A DNA stretch of 64,000 bases from assembly GCF_002902905.1 (NCBI RefSeq), contig NZ_CP026124.1, forward strand, positions 4,154,001 through 4,218,000. The letters run 5' to 3'. The DNA comes from Achromobacter sp. AONIH1. Its GTDB lineage: Bacteria > Pseudomonadota > Gammaproteobacteria > Burkholderiales > Burkholderiaceae_B. Position 1 is the first letter of the stretch, and each line of letters starts with the position of its first letter. Below the pieces are notes generated by a model. The model worked only from the letters and a program-made list of their open reading frames with translations. It was not told where the DNA came from and searched no databases. The position numbers and the translations under genes are program-made. This document shows, piece after piece, positions 22,764 to 39,566 of the stretch.

Positions 22764-24203
22764 GTGAATCACACGCACGAGCAGGGCGGCGCCGGCGCGC
22801 CGCAAGGCGCCAATGAAAACGCGCTCAGCGCGACGCTGAAGACGCGTCATCTCACCATGATGTCCATCGCCGGCGTGATCGGCGGCAGCCTGTTCGTCGG
22901 CTCGGGCAGCATCGTGCACTCGGCGGGGCCGGCGGCGGTGCTGGCTTATCTGGCCGGCGGCATCGTGGTGGTGTTCATCATGCGCATGCTGGGCGAGATG
23001 GCCACCGCCAATCCCGACACCGGCTCGTTCTCCACCTATGCCGACCGGGCCATCGGCCGCTGGGCGGGCTTCACCATCGGCTGGCTGTACTGGGGCTACT
23101 GGGCGCTGCTGATGGCCTGGGAGGCGCACGTCGCGGGCATCATCCTGCACGAGTGGTTCCCGATGCTGTCGGTCAACGCGTTCACGCTGGGCGCCACGCT
23201 GGTGCTGATCCTGCTGAACTTCTTCAACGTCAGGAACTACGGCGAGGCCGAGTTCTGGTTCGCGCTGATCAAGGTCGTGGCCATCGTCTGCTTCATCGTC
23301 GTCGGCACGCTGGCCGTGCTGCGGCTGTGGCCCTGGGGCGAGGCCCAGGGCGTGGCCAACCTGGTGGCGCATGGCGGCTTCATGCCCAACGGCGGCAAGG
23401 CGGTGGTGGTGGCGCTGCTGGGGGTGATGTTCGCCTTCCTGGGCGTGGAGATCGTCACCATCGCCGCGTCCGAGTCTCCCAATCCGGCGCAGCAGATCAG
23501 CCGCGCCACGCGCTCGGTGGTGTGGCGGGTCTGCCTGTTCTACATCGGCTCGATCTTCCTGATCGCCGCGCTGGTGCCGTGGAATGATCCGCTGCTGGGC
23601 CAGTCGGGCTACGGCGCCTACCGGCGCACGCTGGAGCTGCTGGGTGTGCCGGGCGCGCAGTTCCTGATGAACTTCGTGGTGCTGACGTCCGTCAGCAGCT
23701 GCCTGGTGTCGGCGCATTACACGGCCTCGCGCATGCTGTACTCGCTGGCCCGGCGCGGCGACGCGCCGGCCATGTTGCAGCGCACGCGCGGGCGCAGCGG
23801 CATACCGGTGCATTCGGTCATCGCCTCCTGCGCCGTGGCGGTGTGCATGGCCCTGATCAACTTCGTCGATTTCCTGCGTCCCAAGGATGTGCTGGACACG
23901 CTGATGAACATCACCGGCATGGTCGCCATGCTGGTCTATCTGGTGATTGCCTGCTCGCAACTGCGCATGCGCGGCAAGCTGCGCGCCGAAGGCAAGGAGC
24001 CGCTGGTGCGCATGTGGCTGTTTCCCTGGCTGACCTGGGCGGTGATCATCTTCATCGTGGCGGCGCTGATCACGATGGTGTTCGTCGATGAGTACCGGAC
24101 GGTGGTGCTGTCCACCGGCGCGGCGGCGCTGGCCGTGGTGGCGGTCGGGCTGCTGCGGCATGGACGCGGCGGGGCCGCGCGCCTGCACGGCGCGCGGGCC
24201 TGA
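22764..24203 (+). CDS. APC-family amino acid permease
   Basis: 479 aa with about 12 membrane helices. AAGGAGA precedes the start by about 8 bp. The first helix carries the family signature MMSIAGVIGGSLFVGSGSIVHSAGPAAVLAYLAGG, followed by the EMATANPDTGSFSTYADRAIG loop typical of the GABA/aromatic amino acid branch. It is an inner-membrane proton-coupled importer of amino acids or related amines; the substrate cannot be fixed. It follows the MocR gene in the same direction, with a possible MocR operator between. Confidence 0.92.
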   Translation: MNHTHEQGGAGAPQGANENALSATLKTRHLTMMSIAGVIGGSLFVGSGSIVHSAGPAAVLAYLAGGIVVVFIMRMLGEMATANPDTGSFSTYADRAIGRWAGFTIGWLYWGYWALLMAWEAHVAGIILHEWFPMLSVNAFTLGATLVLILLNFFNVRNYGEAEFWFALIKVVAIVCFIVVGTLAVLRLWPWGEAQGVANLVAHGGFMPNGGKAVVVALLGVMFAFLGVEIVTIAASESPNPAQQISRATRSVVWRVCLFYIGSIFLIAALVPWNDPLLGQSGYGAYRRTLELLGVPGAQFLMNFVVLTSVSSCLVSAHYTASRMLYSLARRGDAPAMLQRTRGRSGIPVHSVIASCAVAVCMALINFVDFLRPKDVLDTLMNITGMVAMLVYLVIACSQLRMRGKLRAEGKEPLVRMWLFPWLTWAVIIFIVAALITMVFVDEYRTVVLSTGAAALAVVAVGLLRHGRGGAARLHGARA

Positions 24204-24317: not shown

Positions 24318-24346
24318 TTGACCATACATTAGGACACTTCTAGAGT
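24318..24346 (+). promoter_or_regulatory. Sigma70-type promoter of the GntR/Liv operon
   Basis: TTGACC at 24318-24323 and TAGAGT at 24341-24346 are separated by exactly 17 bp, in a locally AT-rich stretch. The expected transcription start is at or 1-2 bp from the GntR start codon at 24354, so the mRNA may be leaderless. The region between contains catacattaggacac, which may include the regulator's own site. Confidence 0.6.
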
Positions 24347-24353
24347 TCGCGGC

Positions 24354-25151
24354 ATGGATACCGCGATGCCCTTGCCGAAGTACCACCAGATCTACCTTGT
24401 GCTGCGCGAGCAGTTGCAGGAAGGGCGCTACGACGTGGACGGCGTGCCGGGCGAGCATGCGCTGGCCGCGCAGTTCCAGGTGGCCCGCATCACCATCCGC
24501 AAGGCGATGGAGATGCTGGTGGCCGACGGGCTGGTGTCGCGCCGGCCCGGCCTGGGCACCTGGCCGCGCAGCGCGCCGGCTGCGTCCGCTACCGCGCCGC
24601 GCCCGCGCGCGGCGCAGAAGGCGCAGCTGACCGGGCTGATGGAGAACATCGTCAACATGGGCCTGCGCACCGCCGTGCGCGTGCTGGATTGCGTCCAGGT
24701 CGGCGCGCCGCCGGCGGTGGCCGAGGCGCTGGAGATCGCGCCGGGCGAGCCGGTGATCAAGAGCCTGCGGGTGCGCAGCACCGAGGCCGGCCCCTTGTCC
24801 TACATCACCACCTACGTGCCGCTGGCCGTCGCCGCCTTCACGCGCGAGGACCTGGAGCGCCAGCCCTTGCTGATGCTGCTGGAGTCGGCCGGCGTCGAGT
24901 TCGGCGGCGCCACGCAGACCATCAGCGCCCGGTTGGCCGACGCGCAGGTCGCGCCGCATCTGGACGTGGCCGTGGGCTCGGCCCTGCTGGCCGTGACGCG
25001 CCTGGTGCGCGACGTCAAGGAACGTCCGGTGCAGCTGCTGCAGGGCCTGTACCGGCCCGACCGCTACCAATATCAGTTGCAACTCTCGCGCGTCGGCGGC
25101 ATCGACGCCAAGGTCTGGGTCAGCGAAGAGCTGTCGGCCCAATTCCATTGA
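24354..25151 (+). CDS. GntR-family regulator, HutC/UTRA subfamily
   Basis: 265 aa. The winged helix-turn-helix is at residues about 9-72 (YHQIYLVLREQLQEGRYDVDGVPGEHALAAQFQVARITIRKAMEMLVADGLVSRRPGLGTW). A proline/alanine-rich linker follows, then a UTRA ligand-binding domain (PVIKSLRVRSTEAGPLSYITTYVPLAVAAFTREDL). The second ATG at codon 5 is an alternative start; neither has a ribosome site. It is the first gene of a cluster of at least thirteen genes in one direction and probably controls it in response to the imported substrate or an intermediate. Confidence 0.93.
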   Translation: MDTAMPLPKYHQIYLVLREQLQEGRYDVDGVPGEHALAAQFQVARITIRKAMEMLVADGLVSRRPGLGTWPRSAPAASATAPRPRAAQKAQLTGLMENIVNMGLRTAVRVLDCVQVGAPPAVAEALEIAPGEPVIKSLRVRSTEAGPLSYITTYVPLAVAAFTREDLERQPLLMLLESAGVEFGGATQTISARLADAQVAPHLDVAVGSALLAVTRLVRDVKERPVQLLQGLYRPDRYQYQLQLSRVGGIDAKVWVSEELSAQFH

Positions 25152-25171
25152 TCCCACTCCGGAGATTCGCC

Positions 25172-26377
25172 ATGAACACGCGCCGTCATTTCCTGACCCG
25201 ATCCGCCGCCGCCGCGGCCTTGTTGTCCGCGCCCTGGATCGCGCGCGGCCAGTCCGCGTCCGCCGTGAAAATCGGCGTGCTGCATCCGGTGACGGGCGCG
25301 CTGGCCTATTCGGGCCAGCAGTGCCGGCTGGGCGCGTTGCTGGCCATCGAGGACATCAACCAGGCCGGTGGCATCAAGTCGCTGGGCGGCGCGCCGCTGG
25401 AGGCGGTGCTGGGCGACGCGCAATCGCGTCCCGAGGCGGGCTCGGCCGAGGTCGAGAAAATGGCGGCGGCCGGCGTGTCCGCCGTGGTCGGCGCCTACGC
25501 CTCGGCGATCTGCCTGGCGACCACGCAGACCGCCGCGCGCTACGGGCTGCCCCATGTGGTCGACGTGGGCGTGGCCGACCAGATCGTCGAGCGCGGGCTG
25601 AAGAACACCTTTCGCTTCGGGCCGGGCTATCGCAGCTGTACCGAGCGCGCCATTCAGGACCTGGCGGCGCTGAACCAGGCCGCCGGCAAGCCGGCGCGCA
25701 CGGTGATGATCGTGCACGAGGACTCGCTGTTCGGCGCGGGCACGGCGGCGCTGCTGTCCAAGTCGCTGCCCGAGCACGGCTTCGAGGTGAAAGAGGTCAT
25801 CAAGCATCCGAACCCGACGCGCGACTTCAACAATATCGTGCTGCGCATGCGCTCGGTCAATCCGGACATTGTGATTCCGGCCAACTACTACAACGAATAC
25901 GCGCTGCTGCTGCGCGCCATGAAGCAGCAGAAGGTGCAGCCCAAGGCGATCTACTCCGTGCTGGGCGGGGCGGCGTCGAGCTACAAGTTCCTCAAGGAAT
26001 ATCCCGACGTGGCCCACGGCATCATCGACTGCAACCACTGGTTCAATCCCAAGGACGCGCGTGTCGCGCCGCTGAAGGCGCGGGTGGAGCAGAAGGGCGC
26101 CTACTTCAGCTACGAAGTCTTCATGACCTACACCAGCATGTTCCTGCTGGCGGACGCGCTGGAACGGGCGAAGTCGGCCGACCGCGCCGCCATCATCGAG
26201 GCGCTGGCGGCCAGCGCGTTCTCCGATCATCTGATGCCTTACGGCCCGACCCGTTTCGTCGACGGCCAGAACACCGGCGCGCGGCCCCTGCTGACGCAGG
26301 TCCTGGGCGGCGACATCCAGGTCATCATCCCGCCCGAGTACCGGCAGGCGGACGCGCAGTTCCCCGTGAAGGCCTGA
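25172..26377 (+). CDS. Branched-chain amino acid/amide-type ABC substrate-binding protein
   Basis: 401 aa from the ATG at 25172 (GGAG 9 bp upstream). The N-terminus TRRHFLTRSAAAAALLSAPWIARG has a twin arginine and resembles a Tat signal, common in this receptor group. The mature protein is a type I periplasmic-binding fold: VKIGVLHPVTGALAYSGQQCRLGALLAIEDINQAGGI, SAVVGAYASAICLATTQTAARYGLPHVV, DSLFGAGTAALL. It delivers the ligand to the LivHMGF complex encoded next, with only 4 bp before livH. Members of this family bind amino acids, amides, urea or aromatic acids; the enzymes downstream suggest an amide or imide. Confidence 0.93.
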   Translation: MNTRRHFLTRSAAAAALLSAPWIARGQSASAVKIGVLHPVTGALAYSGQQCRLGALLAIEDINQAGGIKSLGGAPLEAVLGDAQSRPEAGSAEVEKMAAAGVSAVVGAYASAICLATTQTAARYGLPHVVDVGVADQIVERGLKNTFRFGPGYRSCTERAIQDLAALNQAAGKPARTVMIVHEDSLFGAGTAALLSKSLPEHGFEVKEVIKHPNPTRDFNNIVLRMRSVNPDIVIPANYYNEYALLLRAMKQQKVQPKAIYSVLGGAASSYKFLKEYPDVAHGIIDCNHWFNPKDARVAPLKARVEQKGAYFSYEVFMTYTSMFLLADALERAKSADRAAIIEALAASAFSDHLMPYGPTRFVDGQNTGARPLLTQVLGGDIQVIIPPEYRQADAQFPVKA

Positions 26378-26381
26378 CGCG

Positions 26382-27257
26382 ATGCCGCTGGATCCCGCCA
26401 TCCTCTTCAGCGCCGTGCTCAACGGCCTGACCACCGGCGCCGTGTACGCGCTGGTGGCGCTGGGCCTGACCCTGATCTACGGCGTGCTGCACATCATCAA
26501 CTTCGCCCATGGCGCGGCGCTGATGGTGGCGCTGTACGCGGTCTATCTGCTCAACCAGCGGCTGGGCCTGGATCCCTACGCGGCGCTGCCGCTGGTGATG
26601 GCGGGCATGTTCGCGCTGGGCTACCTGTTGCAGCGGCTGGTGATCAACCGCGCCAGCCATGGCAAGGACGAGAACATCCTGCTGGTCACGCTGGGACTGT
26701 CCATCGTGCTGGAGAACCTCGCGCTGGTCTGGTTCAAGTCCGATACGCGCAGCATCGACACGCCCTATGCGCTGTCGACGGTCGAGATCGGGCCTGCGCT
26801 GATCGCGCTGCCCAAGCTGATCGCATTCGGCGGCGCGCTGGCCGTGGCCGCCTGCCTGCTGTGGCTGATCCGGGGCACGGACCTGGGGCGCGCCATCCGC
26901 GCGGTGGCGCGCGAGAAGCAGGGCGCCCGGCTCATGGGCATCGACGTGGAACGGGTCTACGCGCTGTCGTTCGGCATCGGCATGGCCTGCCTGGGCGCGG
27001 CCGCCTGTTTCCTGCTGCCGGCGTACTACGTCAATCCGCAGGTCGGCGGCGGCTTCGTGCTGGTGGCCTTCACCATCGTGGTGCTGGGCGGCATGGGCAG
27101 CTTCGCCGGCGCATTGGCCGGCGGGCTGCTGATCGGCGTGGTCGAGTCGCTGGGCGGCCTGTTCCTGGGCGACTCGCTGGGCCAGATGGGCATCTTCGCC
27201 ATCTTCATCCTGGTGTTGCTGTTCCGCCCGCAGGGGCTGTTCGGGGGGAAAGCATGA
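26382..27257 (+). CDS. Liv-type ABC transporter permease (LivH family)
   Basis: 291 aa, very hydrophobic, with about eight membrane helices. The family start AVLNGLTTGAVYALVALGLTLIYGVLHIINFAHGAALM is intact, and the EAA-like cytoplasmic loop contains TDLGRAIRAVAREKQGARLMGID. One half of the membrane channel of the importer. The stop overlaps the start of the next permease (ATGA at 27254-27257). Confidence 0.95.
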   Translation: MPLDPAILFSAVLNGLTTGAVYALVALGLTLIYGVLHIINFAHGAALMVALYAVYLLNQRLGLDPYAALPLVMAGMFALGYLLQRLVINRASHGKDENILLVTLGLSIVLENLALVWFKSDTRSIDTPYALSTVEIGPALIALPKLIAFGGALAVAACLLWLIRGTDLGRAIRAVAREKQGARLMGIDVERVYALSFGIGMACLGAAACFLLPAYYVNPQVGGGFVLVAFTIVVLGGMGSFAGALAGGLLIGVVESLGGLFLGDSLGQMGIFAIFILVLLFRPQGLFGGKA

Positions 27258-28240
27258 ACACGAGCGTCAAGGACGCCTGCGCCATCCTGGCCTTCGGCCT
27301 GGCGGTGCTGGCCATCACCGGGTTCACGCAGTCGGGCGTGCTGCTGACCTTCATCATGATGTCGCTGTACGCGGCGCTGCTGTCGCAGGCCTGGAACATC
27401 CTGGGCGGTTACGGCGGCCAGCTGTCCTTCGGCCATGCGCTGTTCTTCGGCGTGGGCGCCTATGCCCAGGCGCTGGGCCAGCTGTCGCTGGGCTGGAATC
27501 CCTGGCTGGCCTTGCCCTGTGCGATCGCGCTGGGCATGGCGGCGGGGCTGGCCGTGGGCGGGCTGACGTTCCGCTACGGACTGCGCGGCTCCTACTTCGC
27601 GCTGGTCACGCTGGCCTTCGCCGAGGTGCTGCGCATCGTGGCGACCAGCGTGTCCTTCACCGGCGGCGGCGTGGGCCTGATGCTGCCCTTGCGCGAAGTC
27701 GCGACCAACATGCAGTTCCCCAGCCGCCATGGCTACATCTACCTGATCCTGGCCTTCGTGCTGCTGGCGCTGGCCGTCACGGCCTGGCTGCGCCGCTCGC
27801 GCTTCGGCGCCTATCTGCAGGCCGTGCGCGACAACGAGGACGCGGCGCGCGCCATCGGCGTCGATCCGCTGCGCGTGAAGCTGGGCGGCATCGCGTTGTC
27901 GGCGGCCTTCATGAGCGCGGCCGGCGCCTTCTATGTGCAGGTGTTTCAGTACATCGATCCGGCCATCGCCTTCGGTCCGGCCGTGTCGGTCGAGGCGCTG
28001 GTGGGCGCCATCGTCGGCGGCATGGGCACGCTTTGGGGGCCGGTGCTGGGCGCGCTGGCGCTGCACGCGCTGGCCGACCTGACGCGCAACCTGTTCGGCG
28101 AGCTGCCCGGCATCAGCATGGTGATCTACGGCGTGGTGCTGATCCTGATCGTGACCTTCGCGCCGCGCGGCATCAGCGGCTGCGGCCAGTCGGCGGCGCG
28201 GCTGTTCAAGCGGCCCGCGCGCCGCGCGCTGGAGAAATGA
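27254..28240 (+). CDS. Liv-type ABC transporter permease (LivM family)
   Basis: 328 aa with about nine helices. LYAALLSQAWNILGGYGGQLSFGHALFFGVGAYAQA is the LivM signature, and the coupling loop is SRFGAYLQAVRDNEDAARAIGVD. Second half of the channel, translationally coupled to livH by a 4-bp overlap and followed by the ATPase gene after 1 bp. The C-terminus ends in a basic tail (FKRPARRALEK). Confidence 0.95.
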   Translation: MNTSVKDACAILAFGLAVLAITGFTQSGVLLTFIMMSLYAALLSQAWNILGGYGGQLSFGHALFFGVGAYAQALGQLSLGWNPWLALPCAIALGMAAGLAVGGLTFRYGLRGSYFALVTLAFAEVLRIVATSVSFTGGGVGLMLPLREVATNMQFPSRHGYIYLILAFVLLALAVTAWLRRSRFGAYLQAVRDNEDAARAIGVDPLRVKLGGIALSAAFMSAAGAFYVQVFQYIDPAIAFGPAVSVEALVGAIVGGMGTLWGPVLGALALHALADLTRNLFGELPGISMVIYGVVLILIVTFAPRGISGCGQSAARLFKRPARRALEK

Positions 28241-28241
28241 C

Positions 28242-29002
<761 letters not shown>

Positions 29003-29006
<4 letters not shown>

Positions 29007-29713
29007 GCGGCTTGCTGGAAGTGCAGGGCCTGCGGGCCGGCTACGGCCGCACGGAAGTGCTGCGCGGCGTGGACCTGAGCGTGGGCCAGGGCGAGATCGT
29101 GGTGCTGCTGGGCAGCAACGGCGCGGGCAAGTCCACGCTCAACAATACCCTGTGCGGACTGCTCCGGCCCTGGGGCGGCCGCGTGCGCTTCGACGGCTCG
29201 GACCTGACCGGCCGCCACTACCGCGACGTGGTGCGCGCCGGCCTGATCCAGGTGCCGGAGGGGCGGCGCGTGTTTCCCAACCTGAGCGTGCGCGAGAACC
29301 TGGAGCTGGGCTCCTATGCGCGGGCGCGCGCCCGGCGCGCGGCCAATCTGGAACAGGTGCTGGACACCTTTCCCCGGTTGCGCGAGCGCCTGGGCCAGCT
29401 GGCCGGCTCCATGTCCGGCGGCGAACAGCAGATGCTGGCCATCGGCCGGGGCCTGATGGCCGAGCCCAGGCTGCTGATCCTGGACGAACCCTCGCTCGGG
29501 CTGTCGCCGCTGATGGTCGAGGAACTGTTCGCGCTGATCGCCCGCCTGCACCGCGCCGGGCTGTCCATCCTGCTGGTCGAGCAGAACGTGGGCCAGTCGC
29601 TGGAAACCGGGCAGCGCGCCTATGTGCTGGAAGAGGGCGCGATCCGCCACAGCGGATCCTGCGCCGAACTGATGGCCAGCGACGACGTGCGCCGCGCCTA
29701 TCTGGGGATGTAG
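29003..29713 (+). CDS. Liv-type ABC transporter ATPase (LivF family)
   Basis: 236 aa. Walker A GSNGAGKST, full signature MSGGEQQMLAIGRGLM, Walker B LLILDEPSLGLSP and switch LLVEQNV are all present. It pairs with the LivG-type ATPase. The gene overlaps its upstream neighbour by 4 bp and is 2 bp from the hydratase gene, which shows that transport and catabolism are encoded on one transcript. Confidence 0.95.
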
Positions 29714-29715
29714 CC

Positions 29716-31044
29716 ATGGATCCTGTCAGTCCTTCCGCCGCCTTGCGCGCCGTGGTCCGGGCGGGCGAGGGCGGGGATGCCGTACCGCAGACCCTGGCCC
29801 AGAAGCTGATCGCCGCCGCCTGCGGGCGCGAAACGGTGGCCGAGGGCGAGATCGTCACCTGCCGCGTCGACCTGGCCATGTTCCATGATTCCAGCGGCCC
29901 GCGCCGCCTGGAACCGATGTTGCGCGAAGTCGGCGCCCGACTGTGGGATCCCGCCAGGGTGGTGCTGGTGATCGACCACTACGTGCCCGAGTCCGACGAG
30001 GAATCGCGCCGCATCGTGCGCATCGCGCGGGAATGGGCCGTGCGCGAGCGATTGCCCAATGTCTACGACAGCCAGGGCATCTGCCACGTGGTGCTGCCGC
30101 AGGGCGGGCATCTGCGGCCCGGCATGTTCTGCGTCGGCGGCGATTCGCATTCACCCACCGGCGGCGCCTTCGGCGCCTACATGTTCGGCATCGGCAGCAC
30201 CGAGATGCTGGGCGTGGCCGTCACCGGCGGCATCTGGGTGCGCGTGCCGCGCACGCTGATGATGCGCTGGAACGGCCGGCTGGGCGCGGGCGTGACCGCC
30301 AAGGACATGATGCTGCGCATGATAGGCCGCCTGGGCATGAATGGCGGCCGCTATCAGGCCGTGGAGTTCTGCGGCGAGGCGGTGCGCGCGCTGTCCATGC
30401 AGGAGCGCATGACGCTGTCCAACATGAGCGCCGAGCTGGGCTCGCAGGTCGGCCTGGTGGCGCCCGACGCCACCACCGAGGCCTGGCTGCGCGAGGCCGG
30501 CGTGCGGGGACCGCTCGATATCGCGCACTGGCAGAGCGACCCCGACGCCGACGCCGAGTGGCACGATTTCGACGCCGCCGCGCTGGCGCCGCAGGTGGCC
30601 GCCCCGCACAGCCCCGCCAATGCGGCGGATGTGAGCGTCCATGCTGGCGTGGCGGTGCAGGCGGCCTATATCGGCGCCTGCACCGGCGCCAAGCTGGACG
30701 ACCTGCGCGCCGCAGCCGCCGTGCTGCGCGGCCGCCGCGTGGCGGCGGGCGTCAAGCTGATGGTGGCGCCCGCCAGCCTGCGCGACCAGAGCGATGCCGA
30801 GCGCGAGGGCGTGCTGCAGACGCTGCTGGAGGCGGGCGCGCAGCTGCTGCCCACGTCCTGCGGCGCCTGCGCCGGCTACGGCGGCTCGATTCCCGACGGC
30901 GCCACGGTGATCTCGACCACGGCGCGCAATTTCAAGGGCCGCATGGGTTCCGAGACCGCTCAGGTCTACCTGGCCTCGCCCTACAGCGTGGCCGCCGCGG
31001 CGGCCACGGGCCGCATCATCGATCCCAGGGAGGTGCTGCAATGA
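29716..31044 (+). CDS. Aconitase-superfamily hydro-lyase, large subunit (LeuC-like)
   Basis: 442 aa. The aconitase-family core is clear: DHYVPESDEESRRIVRIARE, GDSHSPTGGAFGAYMFGIGSTEMLGV, and [4Fe-4S] cysteines in YIGACTGAKLDD and SCGACAGYGGS, ending STTARNFKGRMGS. It is a stand-alone large subunit of the isopropylmalate isomerase kind. The context (no leuA or leuB, but transporter and ICL/PEPM lyase) argues against leucine synthesis. Related two-subunit enzymes hydrate citraconate, maleate or dimethylmaleate; dimethylmaleate hydratase (DmdAB) in nicotinate fermentation is the best-known analogue. The substrate here is inferred. ATGA overlap with the small subunit gene. Confidence 0.9.
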   Translation: MDPVSPSAALRAVVRAGEGGDAVPQTLAQKLIAAACGRETVAEGEIVTCRVDLAMFHDSSGPRRLEPMLREVGARLWDPARVVLVIDHYVPESDEESRRIVRIAREWAVRERLPNVYDSQGICHVVLPQGGHLRPGMFCVGGDSHSPTGGAFGAYMFGIGSTEMLGVAVTGGIWVRVPRTLMMRWNGRLGAGVTAKDMMLRMIGRLGMNGGRYQAVEFCGEAVRALSMQERMTLSNMSAELGSQVGLVAPDATTEAWLREAGVRGPLDIAHWQSDPDADAEWHDFDAAALAPQVAAPHSPANAADVSVHAGVAVQAAYIGACTGAKLDDLRAAAAVLRGRRVAAGVKLMVAPASLRDQSDAEREGVLQTLLEAGAQLLPTSCGACAGYGGSIPDGATVISTTARNFKGRMGSETAQVYLASPYSVAAAAATGRIIDPREVLQ

Positions 31045-31571
31045 ACCAGCACGGCCGCGTCTGGCGGGTAGGCGCAGATATCGACACCGACGCGCTCGCC
31101 CCGGGCGCCTACATGAAGTTCGGCATCGACGAGATCGCGCGCCATTGCCTGCAGCGCGTGCGGCCAGACTTCGCCGCCGGCGTGCGGCCCGGCGACGTGC
31201 TGGTGGCCGGGCCCAACTTCGGCATCGGCTCCTCGCGCGAACAGGCCGCCGCCGCCCTGGTCCGGCTGGGCGTGGCGGCGGTGGTGGCGCCGTCCTATAA
31301 CGGCCTGTACTTCCGCAACGCCTTCAACGTCGGCCTGCTGCTGCTGACCTGCCCGCATGCCGCCCGGCTGGTCGAGGGCGAACGCGTCAGCCTGGACCCG
31401 GACGCCGGCCGCATCCATCGCCGGGACGGCGAGGCGCTGGCCTGCGAGCCGCTGCCGGACTTCCTGCTGGACATGGTGCGGGCCGGCGGCCTGCTCAATC
31501 AACTGAAGGCGCTGCAAAAAGGAGCGCGGCCACAGGCCGGCCAGGCTCCGGGCAATGCCACCGAATCCTGA
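31041..31571 (+). CDS. Aconitase-superfamily hydro-lyase, small subunit (LeuD-like)
   Basis: 176 aa. VGADIDTDALAPGAYMKFG at the start and GPNFGIGSSREQAAAALVRLGVAAVVAPSYNGLYFRNAFNVGL are the conserved swivelling-domain segments that complete the active site of the large subunit. Overlaps the large-subunit gene by 4 bp. An extra tail of about 25 residues after the domain is poorly ordered. Confidence 0.92.
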   Translation: MNQHGRVWRVGADIDTDALAPGAYMKFGIDEIARHCLQRVRPDFAAGVRPGDVLVAGPNFGIGSSREQAAAALVRLGVAAVVAPSYNGLYFRNAFNVGLLLLTCPHAARLVEGERVSLDPDAGRIHRRDGEALACEPLPDFLLDMVRAGGLLNQLKALQKGARPQAGQAPGNATES

Positions 31572-31589
31572 CGAACCGGAACTGCCATC

Positions 31590-33269
31590 ATGCTAGACCC
31601 CGTCACCCTGGCCGTGCTCAACGGCCGGCTGGAACAGATCGCCGATGAAATGGACGCGACCCTGTACCGCAGCGCCTTCAATCCCATCATCGCCGAGGCG
31701 CACGACGCCTGCCACGGCCTGTACGACGCCGCCAGCGGCGCCACGCTGGTGCAGGGCAAGTCCGGCCTGCCGGTGTTCGTGGGCGCCATGTCATTCGCGG
31801 TCCAGGCCGCCGCCCGCGCCGCCCAGGGGCGCGGCGGCATGCGGGATGGCGACGTCTGGATCCTGAACGATCCCTACGACGGCGGCACCCACGCCAACGA
31901 CTTCAAGCTGGTGCGCCCGGTGTTCCGGGGCGGCGAGCTGTATTGCTACCTGGCCTCGGCCGCGCACTGGCATGACGTCGGCGGCGCGGTGCCCGGCAAC
32001 TACAACCCGGCCGCGACCGAGTGCTGGCAGGAGGCGGTGCAGATCCCGCCGGTGCGCATGGTGCGCGGCGGCGAGCTGGACGAGGACGTGCTGGCCATCC
32101 TGAAGGCCAATTCGCGCCTGCCCGACAGCCTGTGGGGCGACCTGAACGGCCAGCTGGCCGCGCTGGAACTGGGCGCGGGCCGGCTCGACGACCTGTTGCA
32201 GGAGTATGGCGACGACACCGTGCGGGCCGCGCTGGACACGCTGCGCCAGCGCGCCCGGCGCCTGATGCTGGACCACGTGGCCAGCCTGCCGGACGGCGAG
32301 TACCGCTATCGCGACACGCTGGACAACGACGGCGTCAAGGACGCCGAGCTGACCATCGCCCTGCGGCTGCGCGTGAGCGGTGAACGGCTGGAACTGGATT
32401 TTTCGGAGACCTCGCCGGCCTGCGCCGGCCCGGTCAATATCTCGCGCGCCACCGCCGTGGCCGCCTGCTACGTGGCGCTCAAGCACGTGTTCCCGGACGT
32501 GCCGGCCAATGCCGGCGTGCTGGACGCGGTGACGGTGACGCTGCCCGACGGCCTCTTGATCTCGGCGGAACGGCCGCGCCCGGTGGGCGGCTATACCGAG
32601 ACCATCCTGCGCATGATCGACGTGATCTTCTGCGCCGTGGCCCAGGCCGCGCCCGAGCGCGCGCCGGCCCAGGCCTACGGCACCATCAACGCGCTGTCCA
32701 TCGCCGGCTACCGCAGCGACGCGGCGCGCAAGGGGCAGCGCTGGGTCATGTTCAGTTTCTTCGGCGGCGGCCACGGCGGCCATAGCGCCGGCGACGGCCT
32801 GAGCCACGGCAACGCGCCGATCTCCACGGCGACGATTCCGCCGCTGGAGATCCTGGAGGCCGCTTATCCGGTGCGCTTCACGCAATGGGCGCTGCGGCCC
32901 GACTCGGCCGGCGACGGCAGGCATCGCGGCGGCCTGGGCGCCATCTACGAAATCGAATTGCTGGAAGACAGCGCCGAGGCCTTCATCTTCGGCGAGCGCG
33001 GCCGCAGCAGCCCCAAGGGCGTGGCCGGCGGCGAGCCGGCGGCATCGAACGTGTTCCGCTATCAGCAGGACGGGCAGTGGCTGGCGCCGCCCATGACCTC
33101 GAAGATGCTGGGCATCGCGCTCAAGCGCGGCGAACGCGTGCGGCTGGAAACGCCGGGCGGCGGCGGCTACGGACCGCCGGCGCAGCGCAGCGAGGCGGCG
33201 CGCCGGCGCGACCGCGATATGGGCTATGTGAGCGGCGCGGCCGCCGCGCAGGAAAAGGGAAGGGCATGA
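31590..33269 (+). CDS. Hydantoinase B/oxoprolinase family protein (HyuB)
   Basis: 559 aa. The family signatures are LEQIADEMDATLYRSAFNPIIAEAHDACHGLYD, DVWILNDPYDGGTHANDFKLVRPVF, VNISRATAVAACYVALKHVFPDVPANAGVLDAV and GGGHGGHSAGDGLSHGN, ending with LETPGGGGYGPP. HyuB partners HyuA in ATP-dependent opening of cyclic amides such as hydantoins, 5-oxoproline or caprolactam, and in some cases carboxylation of ketones. Overlaps hyuA by ATGA. In this operon a cyclic imide or lactam is the most likely substrate. Confidence 0.92.
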   Translation: MLDPVTLAVLNGRLEQIADEMDATLYRSAFNPIIAEAHDACHGLYDAASGATLVQGKSGLPVFVGAMSFAVQAAARAAQGRGGMRDGDVWILNDPYDGGTHANDFKLVRPVFRGGELYCYLASAAHWHDVGGAVPGNYNPAATECWQEAVQIPPVRMVRGGELDEDVLAILKANSRLPDSLWGDLNGQLAALELGAGRLDDLLQEYGDDTVRAALDTLRQRARRLMLDHVASLPDGEYRYRDTLDNDGVKDAELTIALRLRVSGERLELDFSETSPACAGPVNISRATAVAACYVALKHVFPDVPANAGVLDAVTVTLPDGLLISAERPRPVGGYTETILRMIDVIFCAVAQAAPERAPAQAYGTINALSIAGYRSDAARKGQRWVMFSFFGGGHGGHSAGDGLSHGNAPISTATIPPLEILEAAYPVRFTQWALRPDSAGDGRHRGGLGAIYEIELLEDSAEAFIFGERGRSSPKGVAGGEPAASNVFRYQQDGQWLAPPMTSKMLGIALKRGERVRLETPGGGGYGPPAQRSEAARRRDRDMGYVSGAAAAQEKGRA

Positions 33270-35320
33270 CGATGGCGACGACGCAACAATCCCTGGTGGT
33301 GGGCGTGGACGTGGGCGGCACGTTCACGGACCTGTTCGTGCTCGATGAGCACACCGGCGAGGCGCGCGTGATCAAGGTGCCGTCCACGCGCGGCGAGGAA
33401 GCGCGCGGCTTCATGAATGGCATCGGCCGCGCGGCCGAGGGCGCGGGCGCCATCGCCACCATCGTGCACGGCACCACCGTCGGCACCAATGCGCTGCTGG
33501 AACGCAAGGTGGCGCGCACCGGCATCATCACGACGGCGGGCTTTCGCGACGTGCTGGAGATGCGCCGGCGCGACCGGCCGCAGACCTGGGGCCTGCGCGG
33601 CGGCTACGAACCCGTGGTGCCGCGCGACCTGCGGCTGGAGGTCGACGAGCGGGTGCTAGCCGACGGCGCGATCCACACCGAGGTCAACCTGGACCAGGTC
33701 GAGGCGGCGGCGCGCGAGCTGCTGGTGCGCGGCTGCGAGGCGGTCTGCGTGTTCTTCGTCAATGCCTACGCCAATCCGGCCAACGAGGCCCGCGCGGTGG
33801 CGCGGGTGCGCGAGATCTGGCCCAACGGCCACGTCACCGCCGCGACCGAGGTGTTGCCCGAGATCCGCGAGTTCGAGCGCTGCTCCACGGCCACGCTCAA
33901 CGCCGCCCTGCAACCGGTGGTGGGCAGCTACCTGACCCGGCTGCAACAGGACCTGCGTGGCCACGGCTTCGACGGCGAGCTGCTGGTGGTGCAGAGCAAT
34001 GGCGGCGTGATGTCTCGCGAAACCGCCTGCGACGTGCCGGTGCGCACGGCGCTGTCCGGTCCGGCGGCCGGCGTCATCGCCTGCGCCGCCATCGCGCGCG
34101 CCGCCGGCCTGCCGGACGTGGTCACGGGCGACATGGGCGGCACGTCCTTCGACGTGTCGCTGGTGGCGGGCGGCGAGGTCTCGCTGGCGGCGCAGACCGC
34201 GATCGAGTTCGGCATGGTGGTGCGCGCGCCGATGATACAGATCGAGACCATCGGCGCGGGCGGCGGTTCGATCGCCAGCGTGGATGCCGGCGGCCTGCTG
34301 CAGGTCGGTCCGGAATCGGCCGGCAGCAATCCCGGGCCGGCCTGCTATGGCCGGGGCAACACACGGCCCACCGTCACCGACGCCAATGTGCTGCTCGGCC
34401 GCATCGCGGCCGACCGGCCGCTGGGCGGCGGACTGCTGGCGCGGCTGGATGCCGAACGCGCGCGCGCGGCCATCGACGAGCACGTGGGCCGGCCGCTGGG
34501 CCTGGACCCGCAGGCGGCGGCCGAGGCCATCCTCACGGTGGCCAACGCCAAGATGGCCGGCGCGATCCGCGTGGTGTCGATCGAGCGCGGCCACGATCCG
34601 CGCAAGTTCGCCTACATGCCCTTCGGTGGCGGCGGCGCGCTGCACGTCTGCGCGCTGATGCGCGAGGTCGGCTGCCTGCAGGGCATCGTGCCGCGCTTTC
34701 CGGGCGTGACCTCGGCGCTGGGTTGCGTCATGGCCGATATGCGCCACGACAGCGTGCAGACGCTGAACACCACGCTGGCGGGCCTGGACGAGGCCGATCT
34801 GGCGCGCCGCGTACAGGCCCTGGCCGACAGCTGCCAGCAACGGCTGGACTCGGCCGGCGTGGCCTTCGAGGGCGTGCGCGAGCGCATCGAGCTGGACATG
34901 CTGTACGCCGGCCAGAGCCATACGGTGAACGTGCCGGTCGAGCGCCAGGCGCTGACGCGCACCGGCATCGCCGCCGCTTTCGAGGCCGCCTACCGTCGCG
35001 CCTATGGCCGCAGCCTGGACGGCATGCCGGTGCGCGTGCTGAACCTGCGCTATGCGCGCATCGGCATGCGGCCCAAGTTCGATCTGGCGGTGCTCGCGCC
35101 CACCGCCGGGGCGATGCCGGCCGTGCTGGGCACGCAGGCCGTCTACCACGGCGGGCAATGGTGGGACGCGGCGCGTTACGAACGGTTGGCGCTGCCCGTC
35201 GACGCGGAAGTGGCCGGCCCGGCCATCCTGGAACAGCCCGACACCACGATCTGGATCGAGCCCGGCTTCACCGGCCGCGTGGACCGCCTGGGCAATCTGC
35301 TGATCCGCCGCCAGCCATGA
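33266..35320 (+). CDS. Hydantoinase A/oxoprolinase family protein (HyuA)
   Basis: 684 aa from the ATG at 33266; a second ATG at 33272 is an alternative. The N-terminal nucleotide-binding motif GVDVGGTFTDLFVLDE belongs to the acetate-kinase-like ATPase fold. Other signatures are VHGTTVGTNALLERK, GDMGGTSFDVSLV and IGAGGGSIASVD. HyuA uses ATP to activate the substrate carbonyl and works with HyuB. No biotin or acetone-carboxylase gamma gene follows, which favours amide hydrolysis over carboxylation. An 82-bp gap with a small GC hairpin (gcccc-tgcg-ggggc) separates it from the next gene. Confidence 0.92.
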   Translation: MTMATTQQSLVVGVDVGGTFTDLFVLDEHTGEARVIKVPSTRGEEARGFMNGIGRAAEGAGAIATIVHGTTVGTNALLERKVARTGIITTAGFRDVLEMRRRDRPQTWGLRGGYEPVVPRDLRLEVDERVLADGAIHTEVNLDQVEAAARELLVRGCEAVCVFFVNAYANPANEARAVARVREIWPNGHVTAATEVLPEIREFERCSTATLNAALQPVVGSYLTRLQQDLRGHGFDGELLVVQSNGGVMSRETACDVPVRTALSGPAAGVIACAAIARAAGLPDVVTGDMGGTSFDVSLVAGGEVSLAAQTAIEFGMVVRAPMIQIETIGAGGGSIASVDAGGLLQVGPESAGSNPGPACYGRGNTRPTVTDANVLLGRIAADRPLGGGLLARLDAERARAAIDEHVGRPLGLDPQAAAEAILTVANAKMAGAIRVVSIERGHDPRKFAYMPFGGGGALHVCALMREVGCLQGIVPRFPGVTSALGCVMADMRHDSVQTLNTTLAGLDEADLARRVQALADSCQQRLDSAGVAFEGVRERIELDMLYAGQSHTVNVPVERQALTRTGIAAAFEAAYRRAYGRSLDGMPVRVLNLRYARIGMRPKFDLAVLAPTAGAMPAVLGTQAVYHGGQWWDAARYERLALPVDAEVAGPAILEQPDTTIWIEPGFTGRVDRLGNLLIRRQP

Positions 35321-35402
35321 CGCCTACACACGATGCCCGGCGCCCCTGCGGGGGCGGCGTCTTCCATCCCGGAACGGTCCGGCGATGAAACAGGAGCACA
35401 CC

Positions 35403-36004
35403 ATGTCCGACGCCCGATCCACCGCCTTGATCGTCATCGACCTGCAGAACGACTTCCTCGCGCCCGGCGGCGCCTATGATCGTGGCGGCGCCGTCTCGGC
35501 CGAGGCGCGCGCGCTGCCGCCCGGGTGGCGCCGGTGGCGCGCGCCCTGAAGGCCGCCGGCGGCTTCGTCGCCGCCAGCCAGTTCACGCTGTGGCCCGACG
35601 CGGCCGGCGAACCCATGATCTCGCCACACCTGCGCCGGCTGCGGCCTTTCCTGCGGCGCGGCGATTTCGCAGCCGGCGGCCCGGGCCATGCCTGCGTGGC
35701 CGAGCTGGACGGCCTGGTCGACGTGGCCGTCTGGAAGGTCGCCTATTCGGCTTTCTTCAATACGCAGCTGGACTGGGTGCTGCGGCGTGCCGGCATCGAG
35801 CACGTGGCCATCTGCGGCATCGTGACCAACGGCGGCGTGGCCAGCACGGCGCGCGACGCGCACATGCGGGATTACCACGTCACCGTGCTGGCTGACGGCT
35901 GCGCCGCGCCGACGCCGGCGTTGCACAACGCCGCGCTGGCCGATCTGCGCAGCGTGGCGGACCTGCGCGCCTGCGAGGACTTCATCGCGGGAATCGTCCG
36001 ATGA
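35403..36004 (+). pseudogene. Isochorismatase-family hydrolase interrupted by a frameshift
   Basis: Reading from the ATG at 35403 (AGGAG 6 bp upstream) gives a normal N-terminus with STALIVIDLQNDFLAPGGAYD, but the frame hits TGA at 35547. The rest of the protein continues in another frame (RVAPVARALKAAGGFVAASQFTLWPD to the end at 36004). Joining them needs one extra base near 35515-35525, where the DNA reads ctgccgcccgggtgg. The family aspartate (DLQNDF) and lysine (WKVAYSAF) are present. The position of the catalytic cysteine, normally TNxCV, is Gly-Gly-Val here (IVTNGGVASTARDAH), so even an intact protein might not be a cysteine hydrolase. The stop overlaps the flavoprotein start, so it was built as part of the operon. 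A sequencing error is possible. Confidence 0.8.
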
Positions 36005-37398
36005 ACGGACCGGACGCGCAGCCCGCGCCGGAACTGTCGCTGCCCGTGCTCATCATCGGCGGCGGCGCCTGCGGCCTGACCGCCGCCATCCGGCTGGCGC
36101 GGTCGGGCGTGGAATGCGTGGTGATCGAGCGTGACGCCGTGCCGGCCGGGTCCACCGCGCTGTCGTCCGGCTTCATTCCGGCGGCGGGTACGCGCGTGCA
36201 GCGCGCCGCCGGCGTGGCGGACAGCGTGGACGACTTCGCCGCCGACATCCTGGCAAAGAGCGGCGGCGCCGCCGCCGCGCATCTGGTGCAAGCCTATGCC
36301 CGGGCCGCGCCGGCCGCCATCGACGCGCTGGAACAGGCCGGGCTGCGCTTCGAGCTGCTGGACGGCTTCCTGTACCCCGGTCATCGCGCCCGCCGCATGC
36401 ACACGCTGCGCCAGCGCTCGGGCCAGGCGCTGATGGCCGCGCTGGGACAGGCGGCGGCGGACGCGGGCGCGCTGGTGCTGACGCGCACACTGGCGCGCGA
36501 GCTGCGGCATGACGGCCAGGGCCGGATCACGGCCGTGATCTGCGAACGACCGGACGGCACGCGTGAATCCATCGGCTGCGATGCGCTGATCCTGGCCTGT
36601 AACGGCTTCGGCGGCAACGCCGCCATGGTGCGCGAGCATCTGCCAGCCATGGCGGACGCGGTCTATGGCGGCCACGCCGGCAACGATGGCAGCGCGGTGC
36701 GCTGGGGGCGGGAGCTGGGCGCGGGCCTGGCCGATATGGGCGCCTATCAGGGGCACGGCTCCTGGGCCACGCCGCAGGGCGCGCTGGTGTCCTGGGCCGT
36801 GATCATGGATGGCGGCGTGCAGGTCAATCGGCTGGGCCGGCGCTTTCACGACGAGACCCAGGGCTATTCGGAAGCGGCCGTGCGCGTGCTGGCGCAGCCG
36901 GATGGCGTGGCCTGGAACGTGTTCGACGACCAGGCGCTGGCGCTGGTGCGCGACTTTCCCGATTTCCAGGCAGCGCGCGCGGCGGGCGCGCTGCGCAGCG
37001 CCGACGACGTGCCGGCGCTGGCCGCGCTGATCGGCTGCGATGCGCGGGCGCTGGCCGACACGCTGCGGTCGGTAGCCAGGGATGCACGGGACGTCCACGG
37101 ACGCCGTTTCACGCGCGCCTTGTCCGCGCCATATCACGCGGTCAAGGTCACCGGCGCGCTGTTCCATACCCAGGGCGGCCTCGACATCGACGCCCGCTGC
37201 CGCGTGCGGCGGGCGGACGGCGGCCTGTTCCCGAATCTGCTGGCGGCGGGCGGCGCGGCGCGCGGCGTGTCGGGCAACGATGTGGCGGGCTATCTGTCGG
37301 GCAACGGCCTGCTCAGCGCCATCGCGGGCGGCCATATCGCCGCGGCGACGGCCGCCGGGATCGCGGGCACGGCGCTGGCCGATGAGCCGACTCCGTAG
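36001..37398 (+). CDS. FAD-dependent oxidoreductase, fumarate reductase/KstD-like flavoprotein
   Basis: 465 aa. The FAD-binding motif VLIIGGGACGLTAAIRLARSGVECVVIERD is at residues 15-44. STALSSGFIPAAGTRVQ, LILACNGFGGN and the late YHAVKVTGALFHTQGGLDIDARCRV followed by GGAARGVSGNDVAGYLSGNGLLSA are typical of the FAD_binding_2 family (fumarate reductase, 3-ketosteroid dehydrogenase, tricarballylate dehydrogenase). It would add or remove a C=C double bond next to a carbonyl. In this operon it could desaturate a succinimide or succinate-like ring to the maleate level. No signal peptide. ATGA overlap with the preceding gene. Confidence 0.87.
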   Translation: MNGPDAQPAPELSLPVLIIGGGACGLTAAIRLARSGVECVVIERDAVPAGSTALSSGFIPAAGTRVQRAAGVADSVDDFAADILAKSGGAAAAHLVQAYARAAPAAIDALEQAGLRFELLDGFLYPGHRARRMHTLRQRSGQALMAALGQAAADAGALVLTRTLARELRHDGQGRITAVICERPDGTRESIGCDALILACNGFGGNAAMVREHLPAMADAVYGGHAGNDGSAVRWGRELGAGLADMGAYQGHGSWATPQGALVSWAVIMDGGVQVNRLGRRFHDETQGYSEAAVRVLAQPDGVAWNVFDDQALALVRDFPDFQAARAAGALRSADDVPALAALIGCDARALADTLRSVARDARDVHGRRFTRALSAPYHAVKVTGALFHTQGGLDIDARCRVRRADGGLFPNLLAAGGAARGVSGNDVAGYLSGNGLLSAIAGGHIAAATAAGIAGTALADEPTP

Positions 37399-37465
37399 CG
37401 TCGCGCGGCCACAGGCATGCGCATGACTTTCATACAGGCATCCACGTTCATGGAGGCATCCAGGC

Positions 37466-38323
37466 ATGAACACCTTGAGTAAGCAGCTGGCCCAGGGCCC
37501 GGTCCTCGCGCCCGGCGTGTACGACGCCTTGTCGGCGCTGGCCGCCGAGCAGGCCGGTTTCCAGGCCCTGTACCTGTCCGGCGCGTCCATCGCCTATACG
37601 CGGCTGGGCCGTTCCGACGTGGGCCTGACCACGTACAGCGAGGTCGAGGACACGCTGGCGCGCATCGCCGAACGGGTCCGGGCGCGCATCATCGTCGACG
37701 CCGACACCGGTTTCGGCAATGCACTGAACGTGCAGCGCACCGTGCGCGGCCTGGAGCGGGCCGGCGCGGCCATGATCCAGCTGGAGGACCAGACCTTTCC
37801 CAAGCGCTGCGGCCACCTGGACGGCAAGTCCGTGGTGCCGGCCGCCGAGATGTGCGGCAAGCTGCGCGCCGCCGTGGACGCGCGCCAATCGCGCGAGACT
37901 CTGATCCTGGCGCGTACCGACGCGCTGGCCTCGGAAGGGCTGGACGCGGCGCTGGAACGGGCCGAGCGCTATCTGGAAGCCGGCGCGGACGCCTTGTTCA
38001 TCGAGGCCCTGCGCAGCGGCGAGCAGATGCGGGCGGCCTGCGGACGCTTCGCCGGCCGCGCGCCGCTGCTGGCCAACATGGTCGAGGGCGGCAAGACGCC
38101 GGTGCAGGGCGCGCAGGAGCTGGCCGCGCTGGGATTCGGCATCGTCATCTTTCCGGGCGGCACGGCGCGCGCGGTGGCCCACACGCTGGCGGGCTACTAC
38201 GGCAGCCTGCGCCAGCACGGCAGCACGACGCCCTGGCGCGACCGCATGCTGGACTTCGACGGCCTGAACGCGATGATCGGCACGCCGGAACTGCTGGCGG
38301 CGGGCAAGCGCTACGAGGCTTGA
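37466..38323 (+). CDS. Isocitrate lyase/PEP mutase superfamily lyase
   Basis: 285 aa. The superfamily signature K-R-C-G-H is at 113-117 (FPKRCGHLDGK) with catalytic C115. Metal ligands lie in IIVDADTGFGNALNV and QLEDQ, and the SGASIAYTRLG loop is near the start. Length and motif fit 2-methylisocitrate lyase and 2,3-dimethylmalate lyase, which cleave to pyruvate plus a second acid, better than PEP mutase. The prpC/prpD genes of the methylcitrate cycle are absent, and a LeuCD-like hydratase is in the same operon, so a substituted malate is the likely substrate. A short gap of 67 bp precedes it; it is the last gene of the cluster. Confidence 0.88.
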   Translation: MNTLSKQLAQGPVLAPGVYDALSALAAEQAGFQALYLSGASIAYTRLGRSDVGLTTYSEVEDTLARIAERVRARIIVDADTGFGNALNVQRTVRGLERAGAAMIQLEDQTFPKRCGHLDGKSVVPAAEMCGKLRAAVDARQSRETLILARTDALASEGLDAALERAERYLEAGADALFIEALRSGEQMRAACGRFAGRAPLLANMVEGGKTPVQGAQELAALGFGIVIFPGGTARAVAHTLAGYYGSLRQHGSTTPWRDRMLDFDGLNAMIGTPELLAAGKRYEA

Positions 38324-38453
38324 GCGGCCGCGCGCGCGGCGGTTGCGGGCCGGCCACGCTCAGGCTGGCGCGGCGCAAGGGCGGGTCGGGCGTCTGGTTT
38401 AGAATCCCCTGGTTTCCCTGTCCGCCCGCATCGTCGCGCGCGGTTTGACGGCC

Positions 38454-39566
38454 ATGCGCGCAGACACCAGCAACTACCGCGATCTCTTCCTCGACAACGT
38501 GCCCATGATGGACGCCCGCGCGCCCGTCGAGTTCGCCAAGGGCGCGTTTCCCGGCGTGGTGAATCTGCCGCTGATGACCGACGAAGAGCGCGAGCTGGTC
38601 GGCATCTGCTACAAGCAGCGCGGCCAGCAGGCCGCCATCGAGCTGGGGCACCGGCTGGTCGGCGGCGCCGTCAAGGCGGCCCGTCTCGACGCCTGGGCCG
38701 CGTTCGCGAAGGCGCATCCGGACGGCTACCTGTATTGCTTCCGGGGCGGCCTGCGTTCGCAGATCGTGCAGCAATGGCTGCGCGACGAGGCCGGCATCGC
38801 CTATCCGCGCGTGACCGGCGGCTACAAGGCCATGCGCGGCTTCCTGCTGGACACGCTGGACCGGGCCATCGCCGAATGCGATTTCCTGGTGCTGGGCGGC
38901 ATGACCGGCACCGGCAAGACCGAGGTGCTGCGCCGGCTGGACGATGCGCTGGACCTGGAAGGGCACGCCAATCATCGCGGCTCCAGCTTCGGCAAGCGCG
39001 TGAGCGGCCAGCCCACGCAGATCAATTTCGACAATGCGCTGGCGATCGACATCCTGAGAAAACGCGCCGCCGGACACGCGCGCTTCGTGGTCGAGGACGA
39101 AGGCCAGGCCGTGGGCAGCTGCAGCCTGCCGCCCGCGCTGTACCAGGGCATGCAGCGCCATGGCCTGGTGTGGCTGGAGGACAGCCTGGAGAATCGCAAG
39201 CAGCGCATCCTGCGCGACTACGTGATCGACCTGGGCGCCGAGTTCGTGGCGGCCCACGGCGCCGAGCAGGGCCAGGCCCTGTTCGCGCAACGCCTGCGCC
39301 AGAGCCTGGACAACATCGCCAGGCGACTGGGCGGCGAGCGCCACAAGCGCCTGGCGGCCATCATGGACGAGGCGCTGCGCGGCCAGGCGCTGGGCCTGGG
39401 CGTGGCTGGTCACCTGGGCTGGATCGAGGGCCTGCTGTCGGAATACTACGATCCCATGTATGTCTACCAGCGCCAGCAGAAGGCCTCGCGCATCGTGTTC
39501 GCGGGGGACCAGGCGGCGGTGACGCAGTACCTGGCGCAACAGGCCGCGGCGCCGGCACGGCGATGA
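38454..39566 (+). CDS. selU: tRNA 2-selenouridine/geranyl-2-thiouridine synthase
   Basis: 370 aa from the ATG at 38454; a TTG 9 bp earlier is possible. The N-terminal rhodanese domain has the catalytic cysteine C95 in [11 protein letters not shown], and the C-terminal part has a P-loop at about 149-157 ([11 protein letters not shown]). The enzyme replaces sulfur with selenium at the wobble 2-thiouridine of tRNAs for Lys, Glu and Gln, by way of a geranylated intermediate. No selD is in the window. It is monocistronic and convergent with the Usp gene. Confidence 0.95.

Follow-up and report, generated by a model that had tools for sequence, protein, structure and literature searches.

What is the function of a block of thirteen gene families in Achromobacter sp. 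AONIH1, in which a HyuAB-type protein pair is encoded beside a LeuCD-like hydratase, a flavoprotein, and an ICL/PEPM-superfamily lyase? The block lies in a stretch of 64,000 nucleotides (contig NZ_CP026124.1, positions 4,154,001 to 4,218,000; hereafter the window) of a 6.65-Mb genome in one contig. Judged by its genes, it is probably an operon for the catabolism of a cyclic imide with substituents, or of a cyclic amide much like one. The observations behind this reading are the genes themselves, their recurrence as one conserved block, a hydratase and lyase core in related loci, and the mutual replacement of three cyclic-amide hydrolase families.

We infer the reactions, their order, and the substrate from the protein families. 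The LivKHMGF-type transporter would import the ring, and the flavoprotein would form or remove a double bond adjacent to a carbonyl group. ATP-driven ring opening by HyuAB would come next. The isochorismatase-family protein, or a different enzyme, would then take off the amide that is left. The LeuCD-like hydratase would add water to the resulting maleate-type acid, and the ICL/PEPM-type lyase would cut the substituted malate into a 2-oxo acid, probably pyruvate, and a second carboxylic acid.

Open reading frames and family scans place the thirteen families on the + strand at 24354-38323. The Pfam and NCBIfam scans covered nine of the thirteen; the LivHMGF names were read from the sequence. 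The features are as follows:

24354..25151, + strand, GntR/UTRA-family regulator (Pfam GntR, UTRA)
25172..26377, + strand, branched-chain-type ABC receptor (Pfam Peripla_BP_6; GGAG upstream of the start at 25172)
26382..27257, + strand, LivH-type permease (frame, conserved order; name read from sequence)
27254..28240, + strand, LivM-type permease (on the same basis)
28242..29006, + strand, LivG-type ATPase (on the same basis)
29003..29713, + strand, LivF-type ATPase (on the same basis)
29716..31044, + strand, LeuC/HacA-like hydratase large subunit (Aconitase, 2.5e-88; hacA_fam TIGR01343, 405.7 bits)
31041..31571, + strand, LeuD/DmdB-like hydratase small subunit (TIGR02087, 159 bits)
31590..33269, + strand, HyuB (Hydantoinase_B, 1.2e-166)
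33266..35320, + strand, HyuA (Hydantoinase_A, 2.8e-85)
35403..35549, + strand, isochorismatase-family N-terminal piece with a catalytic-type Asp motif and an in-frame stop at its end
35480..36004, + strand, isochorismatase-family C-terminal piece in another frame, with the motif GIVTNGG (PF00857, 1.2e-29)
36001..37398, + strand, FAD_binding_2 flavoprotein (5.9e-52)
37466..38323, + strand, ICL/PEPM-superfamily lyase (PEP_mutase PF13714, 7.6e-45)

Five of the 12 junctions are 4-bp overlaps (LivH/LivM, LivG/LivF, LeuC/LeuD, HyuB/HyuA, and isochorismatase/FAD), which the first-pass annotation had pointed out. The remaining seven are gaps of 20, 4, 1, 2, 18, 82, and 67 bases. That annotation described thirteen genes on one strand; all the families are in place, but the isochorismatase-family gene is not a single open frame. 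The G+C content of the block is 71.5%, and that of the whole window is 70.2%.

Relatives of LeuC (E ≤ 1e-80) were found in 35 of 101 genomes, the source genome included. All 34 other loci were fetched, and the identical 13-gene order was present at 26 of them. Comparison of gene neighbourhoods, which the first-pass annotation had proposed for HyuA and the lyase, reveals a discrete block. The window genes on either side of the block were found in none of the 34 related stretches; thus, the block occupies differing chromosomal sites. The other eight loci have matches to LeuC, LeuD, and the lyase, with no HyuAB or isochorismatase match. This indicates that the hydratase and the lyase, which had been joined in the earlier scheme, are the usual core. 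In L063 and L064, the LeuC, LeuD, and lyase matches are ~40% alike, and the lyase of L064 is ~7.5 kb off. L060 has a partial LivF and a partial flavoprotein at the cut ends of its stretch.

In an even sample of 399 genomes of the order, source genome included, HyuA relatives (E ≤ 1e-200) were found in five and LeuC relatives (1e-150) in 20. LeuC relatives (1e-130) were found in 10 of 398 genomes of a phylum sample. The named loci include Achromobacter, Pandoraea, Paraburkholderia, Variovorax, Polaromonas, and others in Burkholderiales. Two genomes outside the class of the window (L189 and L190) contain the set, in which the lyase adjoins LeuD. Minimal units of GntR, LeuC, LeuD, and lyase were observed in Bordetella and relatives (L057-L059, L107, L116, L118, and similar loci). 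They adjoin receptors that read as tripartite tricarboxylate-type in sequence. Such minimal units perhaps serve a free acid.

The ring opener was typed at 103 loci, which comprise a named genome scan (the best 80 of 573), L057-L062, and further loci, minus one duplicate (L131, on the same contig as L058). L036-L056 and L065-L069, mostly from the same genomes as the named loci, and L063 and L064, with LeuC at ~40%, lie outside the 103. HyuA was found at 43 loci, a dihydropyrimidinase/allantoinase-like protein at six, a PuuE-like protein at 21, and none at 33. No locus has two of them together. The whole tested set is present in 37 of the 43 HyuA loci. The flavoprotein, which the first-pass annotation had placed in the scheme, tracks with the ring opener. 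Among 65 loci with full flanks (38 with short flanks were excluded), an opener is present in 45/45 with the flavoprotein and in 5/20 without it (Fisher 7e-11, uncorrected for relatedness). Over all 103 loci, the counts are 60/66 and 10/37. By the score rule, L109 with a 61-residue remnant and L060 with a match cut at the stretch end were counted as lacking the flavoprotein. The locus counts are not independent: L186-L188 come from a single genus, the loci of freshwater Comamonadaceae are relatives of one another, and the HyuA loci are mostly from Achromobacter, Pandoraea, and Variovorax. In the HyuAB-type operons L091, L095, and L098, no flavoprotein gene was found and the other tested genes are retained.

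The dihydropyrimidinase-like gene in L123 and L180 sits between LeuD and the FAD gene, which is the slot of HyuAB. The L123 amidohydrolase has the HxH motif and scores 231 bits to allantoinase AllB (cut-off 358). The PuuE-like protein of L060 matches the PuuE allantoinase 3cl6 (2e-29) and the structure 3qbu (1e-13), which shows its homology by sequence. The PuuE allantoinase model TIGR03212 has a cut-off of 424.6 bits, and the L060 and L113 proteins score 132-146 bits. Both 3cl6 and 3qbu are related to the cyclic imidase HxnM, which was assigned by gene deletion, according to PMC9304392.

When the PuuE-like proteins were compared with the L060 probe, six scored at least 379 bits (self-match included), and the other 15 scored 100-134 bits. 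MmgE/PrpD-type genes are present in 22 of the 103 loci and absent from the block of the window. All 15 loci with remote PuuE-like proteins contain them, at 56-67% identity to the L113 copy, which supports placing these loci in the same group. In most of the PuuE versions, the MmgE/PrpD-type and PuuE-like genes are close together (L106 1-2178, L113 4845-8958, L133 4862-8943, and similar loci). Some PuuE-type sets also hold a Cys-bearing half-amidase-like protein, ISOCH2. With ISOCH2 from L187 as a second search anchor, matches were found in four of 369 genomes of the class, and two of the four contain the same set. In L211, FAD, PuuE, PuuE, ISOCH2, and PEPM are in line, divergent from GntR, LeuC (matched in two adjacent frames), and LeuD. 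In L212, the order is LeuC, LeuD, PuuE-like, ISOCH2; the opposite strand encodes a weakly matching relative of MmgE/PrpD (72 bits). The versions in freshwater Comamonadaceae repeatedly contain a trio of SDR, DUF4387, and AtuA-family genes upstream of GntR, after the Liv transporter (L106, L114, L117, L119, and similar loci).

Where HyuAB is absent, a cyclic-amide hydrolase from either of two unrelated families is present at many loci. This replacement makes it likely that a cyclic amide or imide is the starting material, and it gives indirect support to the cyclic imide start of the first-pass annotation.

Several observations weigh against a ring-degrading operon. The PuuE-like proteins are remote in 15 of 21 cases, and six of the seven PuuE loci within the 45 depend on them. 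Two of the remote proteins that were scanned (L117 and L132) score 71-75 bits with TIGR03212 and have no Pfam match. Six loci have the flavoprotein without an opener, all with cut flanks. Under the scoring rule, 16 of the 103 loci lack the lyase, several of them on cut contigs, and the three L186-L188 genomes gave no close lyase (best 37-38%). L213 has ISOCH2 and two PuuE-like genes with no LeuCD in its 20 kb, and in the fourth ISOCH2 genome the LeuC relative is on the same contig, ~26 kb away. In 27 of the 103 loci, LeuC is present with neither flavoprotein nor opener in the stretch. Judged by this gene content, the hydratase/lyase core would also serve ring-free acids.

HyuA and HyuB belong to the hydantoinase/oxoprolinase family by their Hydant_A_N, Hydantoinase_A, and Hydantoinase_B domains. 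As in ATP-dependent hydantoinase, oxoprolinase, and caprolactamase, both subunits are encoded, with B beside A. Unlike in caprolactamase, the two subunits are under both CapAB equivalog cut-offs (285 and 515 vs 1000 bits). The nearest solved relatives of HyuA are N-methylhydantoinase (412 bits) and "5-oxoprolinase" (384 bits). Its relatives also include subunits of acetone and acetophenone carboxylases (137-276 bits), which is a further point against ring opening and would fit HyuAB as an ATP-dependent carboxylase. The scores to the carboxylases are lower, however, and the replacement of HyuAB by two cyclic-amide hydrolase families also argues against a carboxylase, which we regard as very improbable.

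The isochorismatase-family gene requires a correction to the proposed ring degradation. Its frame is intact at 26 of 26 related loci, and full-length close copies are present elsewhere. The frame break thus belongs to this strain or its assembly, as far as sequence comparison goes. In all 39 relatives, Gly replaces the nucleophilic Cys in the motif GIVTNGG. The Asp-Lys-Cys triad of Cys amidohydrolases such as NicF and RutB is therefore incomplete: the Asp motif is present in 36/39 by the strict pattern, the Lys motif in 39/39, and Cys in 0/39. Public records call the orthologues cysteine hydrolase or RutB among the best 120 matches, despite Gly for Cys. The first-pass annotation had taken this protein as the deamidating enzyme. 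Due to the frame shift here and the Cys to Gly replacement in 39/39 relatives, deamidation by it is doubtful. In L142 (5032-8382, Pigmentiphaga), a hydratase, a Cys-less isochorismatase-family gene, and a lyase are present, and a ring opener and a flavoprotein were not found. This gene set suggests that the Cys-less protein may act after or apart from ring opening.

In a fold comparison, the predicted structure of an intact relative (pLDDT 90.5) comes closest to RutB and biuret hydrolase, and maleamate amidases are further down. The family shares the isochorismatase fold with NicF (maleamate amidohydrolase) and RutB and is unlike them in its Gly for the catalytic Cys. The order of structures fits a ring that is a cyclic ureide of the hydantoin or dihydropyrimidine type, in which case the ureido acid formed by ring opening would be the substrate of the isochorismatase-family protein. 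Going by the names of their matches, the opener families accept ureides as well. However, the Cys is absent in this case too, and a ureido acid normally gives an amino acid, for which a hydratase and such a lyase are not needed. A ureide ring is therefore unlikely.

The flavoprotein has H252, Y289, H389, and Y431 in 59 of 59 sequences. Arg402, Glu378, Arg381, and Arg544, the catalytic residues of fumarate reductase (flavocytochrome c3), correspond to Tyr, Trp, Met or Ile, and Tyr in 59/59. By these residues it should not be a fumarate reductase. The closest folds to its AlphaFold model (pLDDT 91.6) are those of flavocytochrome c3 and of urocanate reductase (TM 0.83-0.88 in most rows). The Tyr pattern prompted a comparison with ketosteroid dehydrogenases, which was rejected as they are lower by fold (0.75-0.77). 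The score against the TcuA (tricarballylate dehydrogenase) equivalog NF006130 is 120 bits, under the cut-off of 369.

The hydratase pair belongs to the LeuCD/HacAB/DmdAB family by its family cut-offs and its Cys residues. LeuC scores 405.7 bits with hacA_fam TIGR01343 (cut-off 385.7), and LeuD scores 159 bits with the LeuD/DmdB family TIGR02087 (cut-off 109). Cys 322, 382, and 385 of LeuC, presumably the [4Fe-4S] Cys triad, are kept in 92 of 92 sequences. Both subunits are far under the biosynthetic LeuC and LeuD cut-offs, with 240 vs 560 for the LeuC equivalog TIGR00170. Lys26 in the specificity loop of LeuD (87/88), which aligns with the homoaconitase Arg, was considered as a sign of a third carboxylate and rejected, as the second LeuD of L137 has Arg.

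The lyase retains the KRCGH motif in the 15 aligned sequences and is under the PrpB equivalog cut-off of TIGR02317 (286 vs 354 bits). Its family profile gives 217-229 bits for methylisocitrate lyases, 226 for petal death protein, and 197 for dimethylmalate lyase 3fa3 (row 12 of 18). The scores are about equal for methylisocitrate lyases and petal death protein, so the sequence by itself does not point to one substrate. In the alignment, VEGG replaces TEFG of the methylisocitrate lyases included, and the NM-[IV]-EGGKTP loop is common to the lyase and petal death protein.

This loop and the LeuD/DmdB assignment are consistent with the narrow form of the first-pass annotation, in which a small imide (citraconimide, dimethylmaleimide, or methyl-ethyl-maleimide) would give pyruvate and acetate, propionate, or butyrate. 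What was noticed by the core, in six of the 103 loci, is a glutaryl-CoA dehydrogenase and not propionate genes, which were not searched for. A small imide is possible, though we consider it rather unlikely. Of the earlier proposal of cleavage to pyruvate and a short acid, the pyruvate part is deduced from the lyase family only, and the second product is perhaps larger, as a hint to glutarate indicates.

At these six loci, the glutaryl-CoA dehydrogenase is within 8 kb of the core: its distance from LeuC is 6.6-7.6 kb for L123, L133, and L180 and no more than 0.2 kb for L186-L188. With 626 bits to solved glutaryl-CoA dehydrogenases, the L188 protein clearly belongs to this family. One copy was found in each of six genomes examined, and four of them have the core as its neighbor. 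It is the first gene of a line that continues with ISOCH2 and two PuuE-like genes in L186-L188. L133 also has a succinate-glutarate CoA-transferase-like gene (544 bits; cut-off 750). As a lead only, the proximity of this dehydrogenase to the hydratase/lyase core suggests glutarate as the second cleavage product, and hence a carboxyethyl-substituted imide, for which hematinic acid is the obvious candidate in nature. CaiB genes beside the Pandoraea loci were rejected as a further glutarate clue, as they are followed in L093 by a gene that, by its sequence, encodes alanyl-tRNA synthetase, and the position looks like the insertion site.

The rings of heme, bilins, and chlorophyll are known to yield hematinic acid on oxidation. 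A carboxyethyl maleimide or succinimide of this type would be converted through a methyl-homoaconitate-like acid and a methyl-homoisocitrate-like acid to pyruvate and glutarate, followed by glutaryl-CoA dehydrogenase. The dehydrogenase near the core, the in-line ISOCH2 and PuuE-like genes of L186-L188, the transferase-like gene of L133, the MmgE/PrpD-type genes of 22 loci, and the LeuC score over the HacA-family cut-off all fit this route. The reported occurrence of hematinic acid and maleimides in leaves and in sediments of lakes (PMC7318184) is also consistent with it. However, the six loci represent about three lineages, and in the genome of the window the dehydrogenase is ~1.9 Mb from the block. 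The L133 dehydrogenase is accompanied by a LysR-type gene of its own (named from its sequence) and may be near the core by chance. The LeuD-loop Lys is not diagnostic, given the Arg in the second LeuD of L137. This route is a weak candidate. A bacterial pathway that finishes tetrapyrrole breakdown, in which imides of the hematinic acid type, as monopyrrole end products of pigment oxidation, give pyruvate and glutarate with three interchangeable openers across Proteobacteria, would be improbable on the present evidence.

The block is flanked on the + strand by an amino-acid permease gene (22764-24203) and a tRNA 2-selenouridine synthase gene (38445-39566), both named from their sequences. The promoter-like match at 24318-24346 is no evidence, as the region scan gave 2 matches versus 1.0 expected. 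The terminator scan of the region gave nothing useful.

The second half of the methylcitrate cycle consists of PrpD, aconitase, and PrpB. The block is similar in its aconitase-type hydratase and PrpB-like lyase, and MmgE/PrpD-type genes are near some of the cores. It differs in a lyase under the PrpB cut-off, in VEGG for TEFG, and in lacking an MmgE/PrpD-type gene. In nicotinate fermentation by Eubacterium barkeri, the dimethylmaleate hydratase DmdAB and 2,3-dimethylmalate lyase yield pyruvate and a short acid. The order of a LeuCD-type hydratase and then an ICL/PEPM-type lyase is shared. That pathway, whose other genes were not searched for here, is not known to include an imide opener, HyuAB, or an importer of this kind. 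HxnM/HxnN of Aspergillus nidulans and the cyclic imide hydrolase of Pseudomonas putida open an imide to a half-amide, which is then deamidated, according to the part of PMC9304392 used here. The proposed ring opening and deamidation are similar, but the HxnM/HxnN opener is PuuE-related instead of HyuAB, and LeuCD and a lyase step are not mentioned in that part of the paper.

Open-access literature gave no hit for this enzyme combination, and no paper there on dimethylmaleate enzymes, imidases, or hematinic acid evidently describes this pathway. The first-pass annotation likewise knew of no described pathway with the full gene set. Its interpretation is partly supported, with better grounds for the imide than it had itself, and its observation is partly confirmed with one correction.

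If a cyclic imide is indeed degraded by this operon, several genera of Burkholderiales and two genomes outside the class would have a route, so far undescribed, by which cyclic imides enter central metabolism. Functions would be given to HyuAB, LeuCD-like, and PrpB-like genes that are now annotated by family only, and three unrelated ring openers would fill one slot. It would also offer a testable answer to the fate of imide end products from pigment oxidation.

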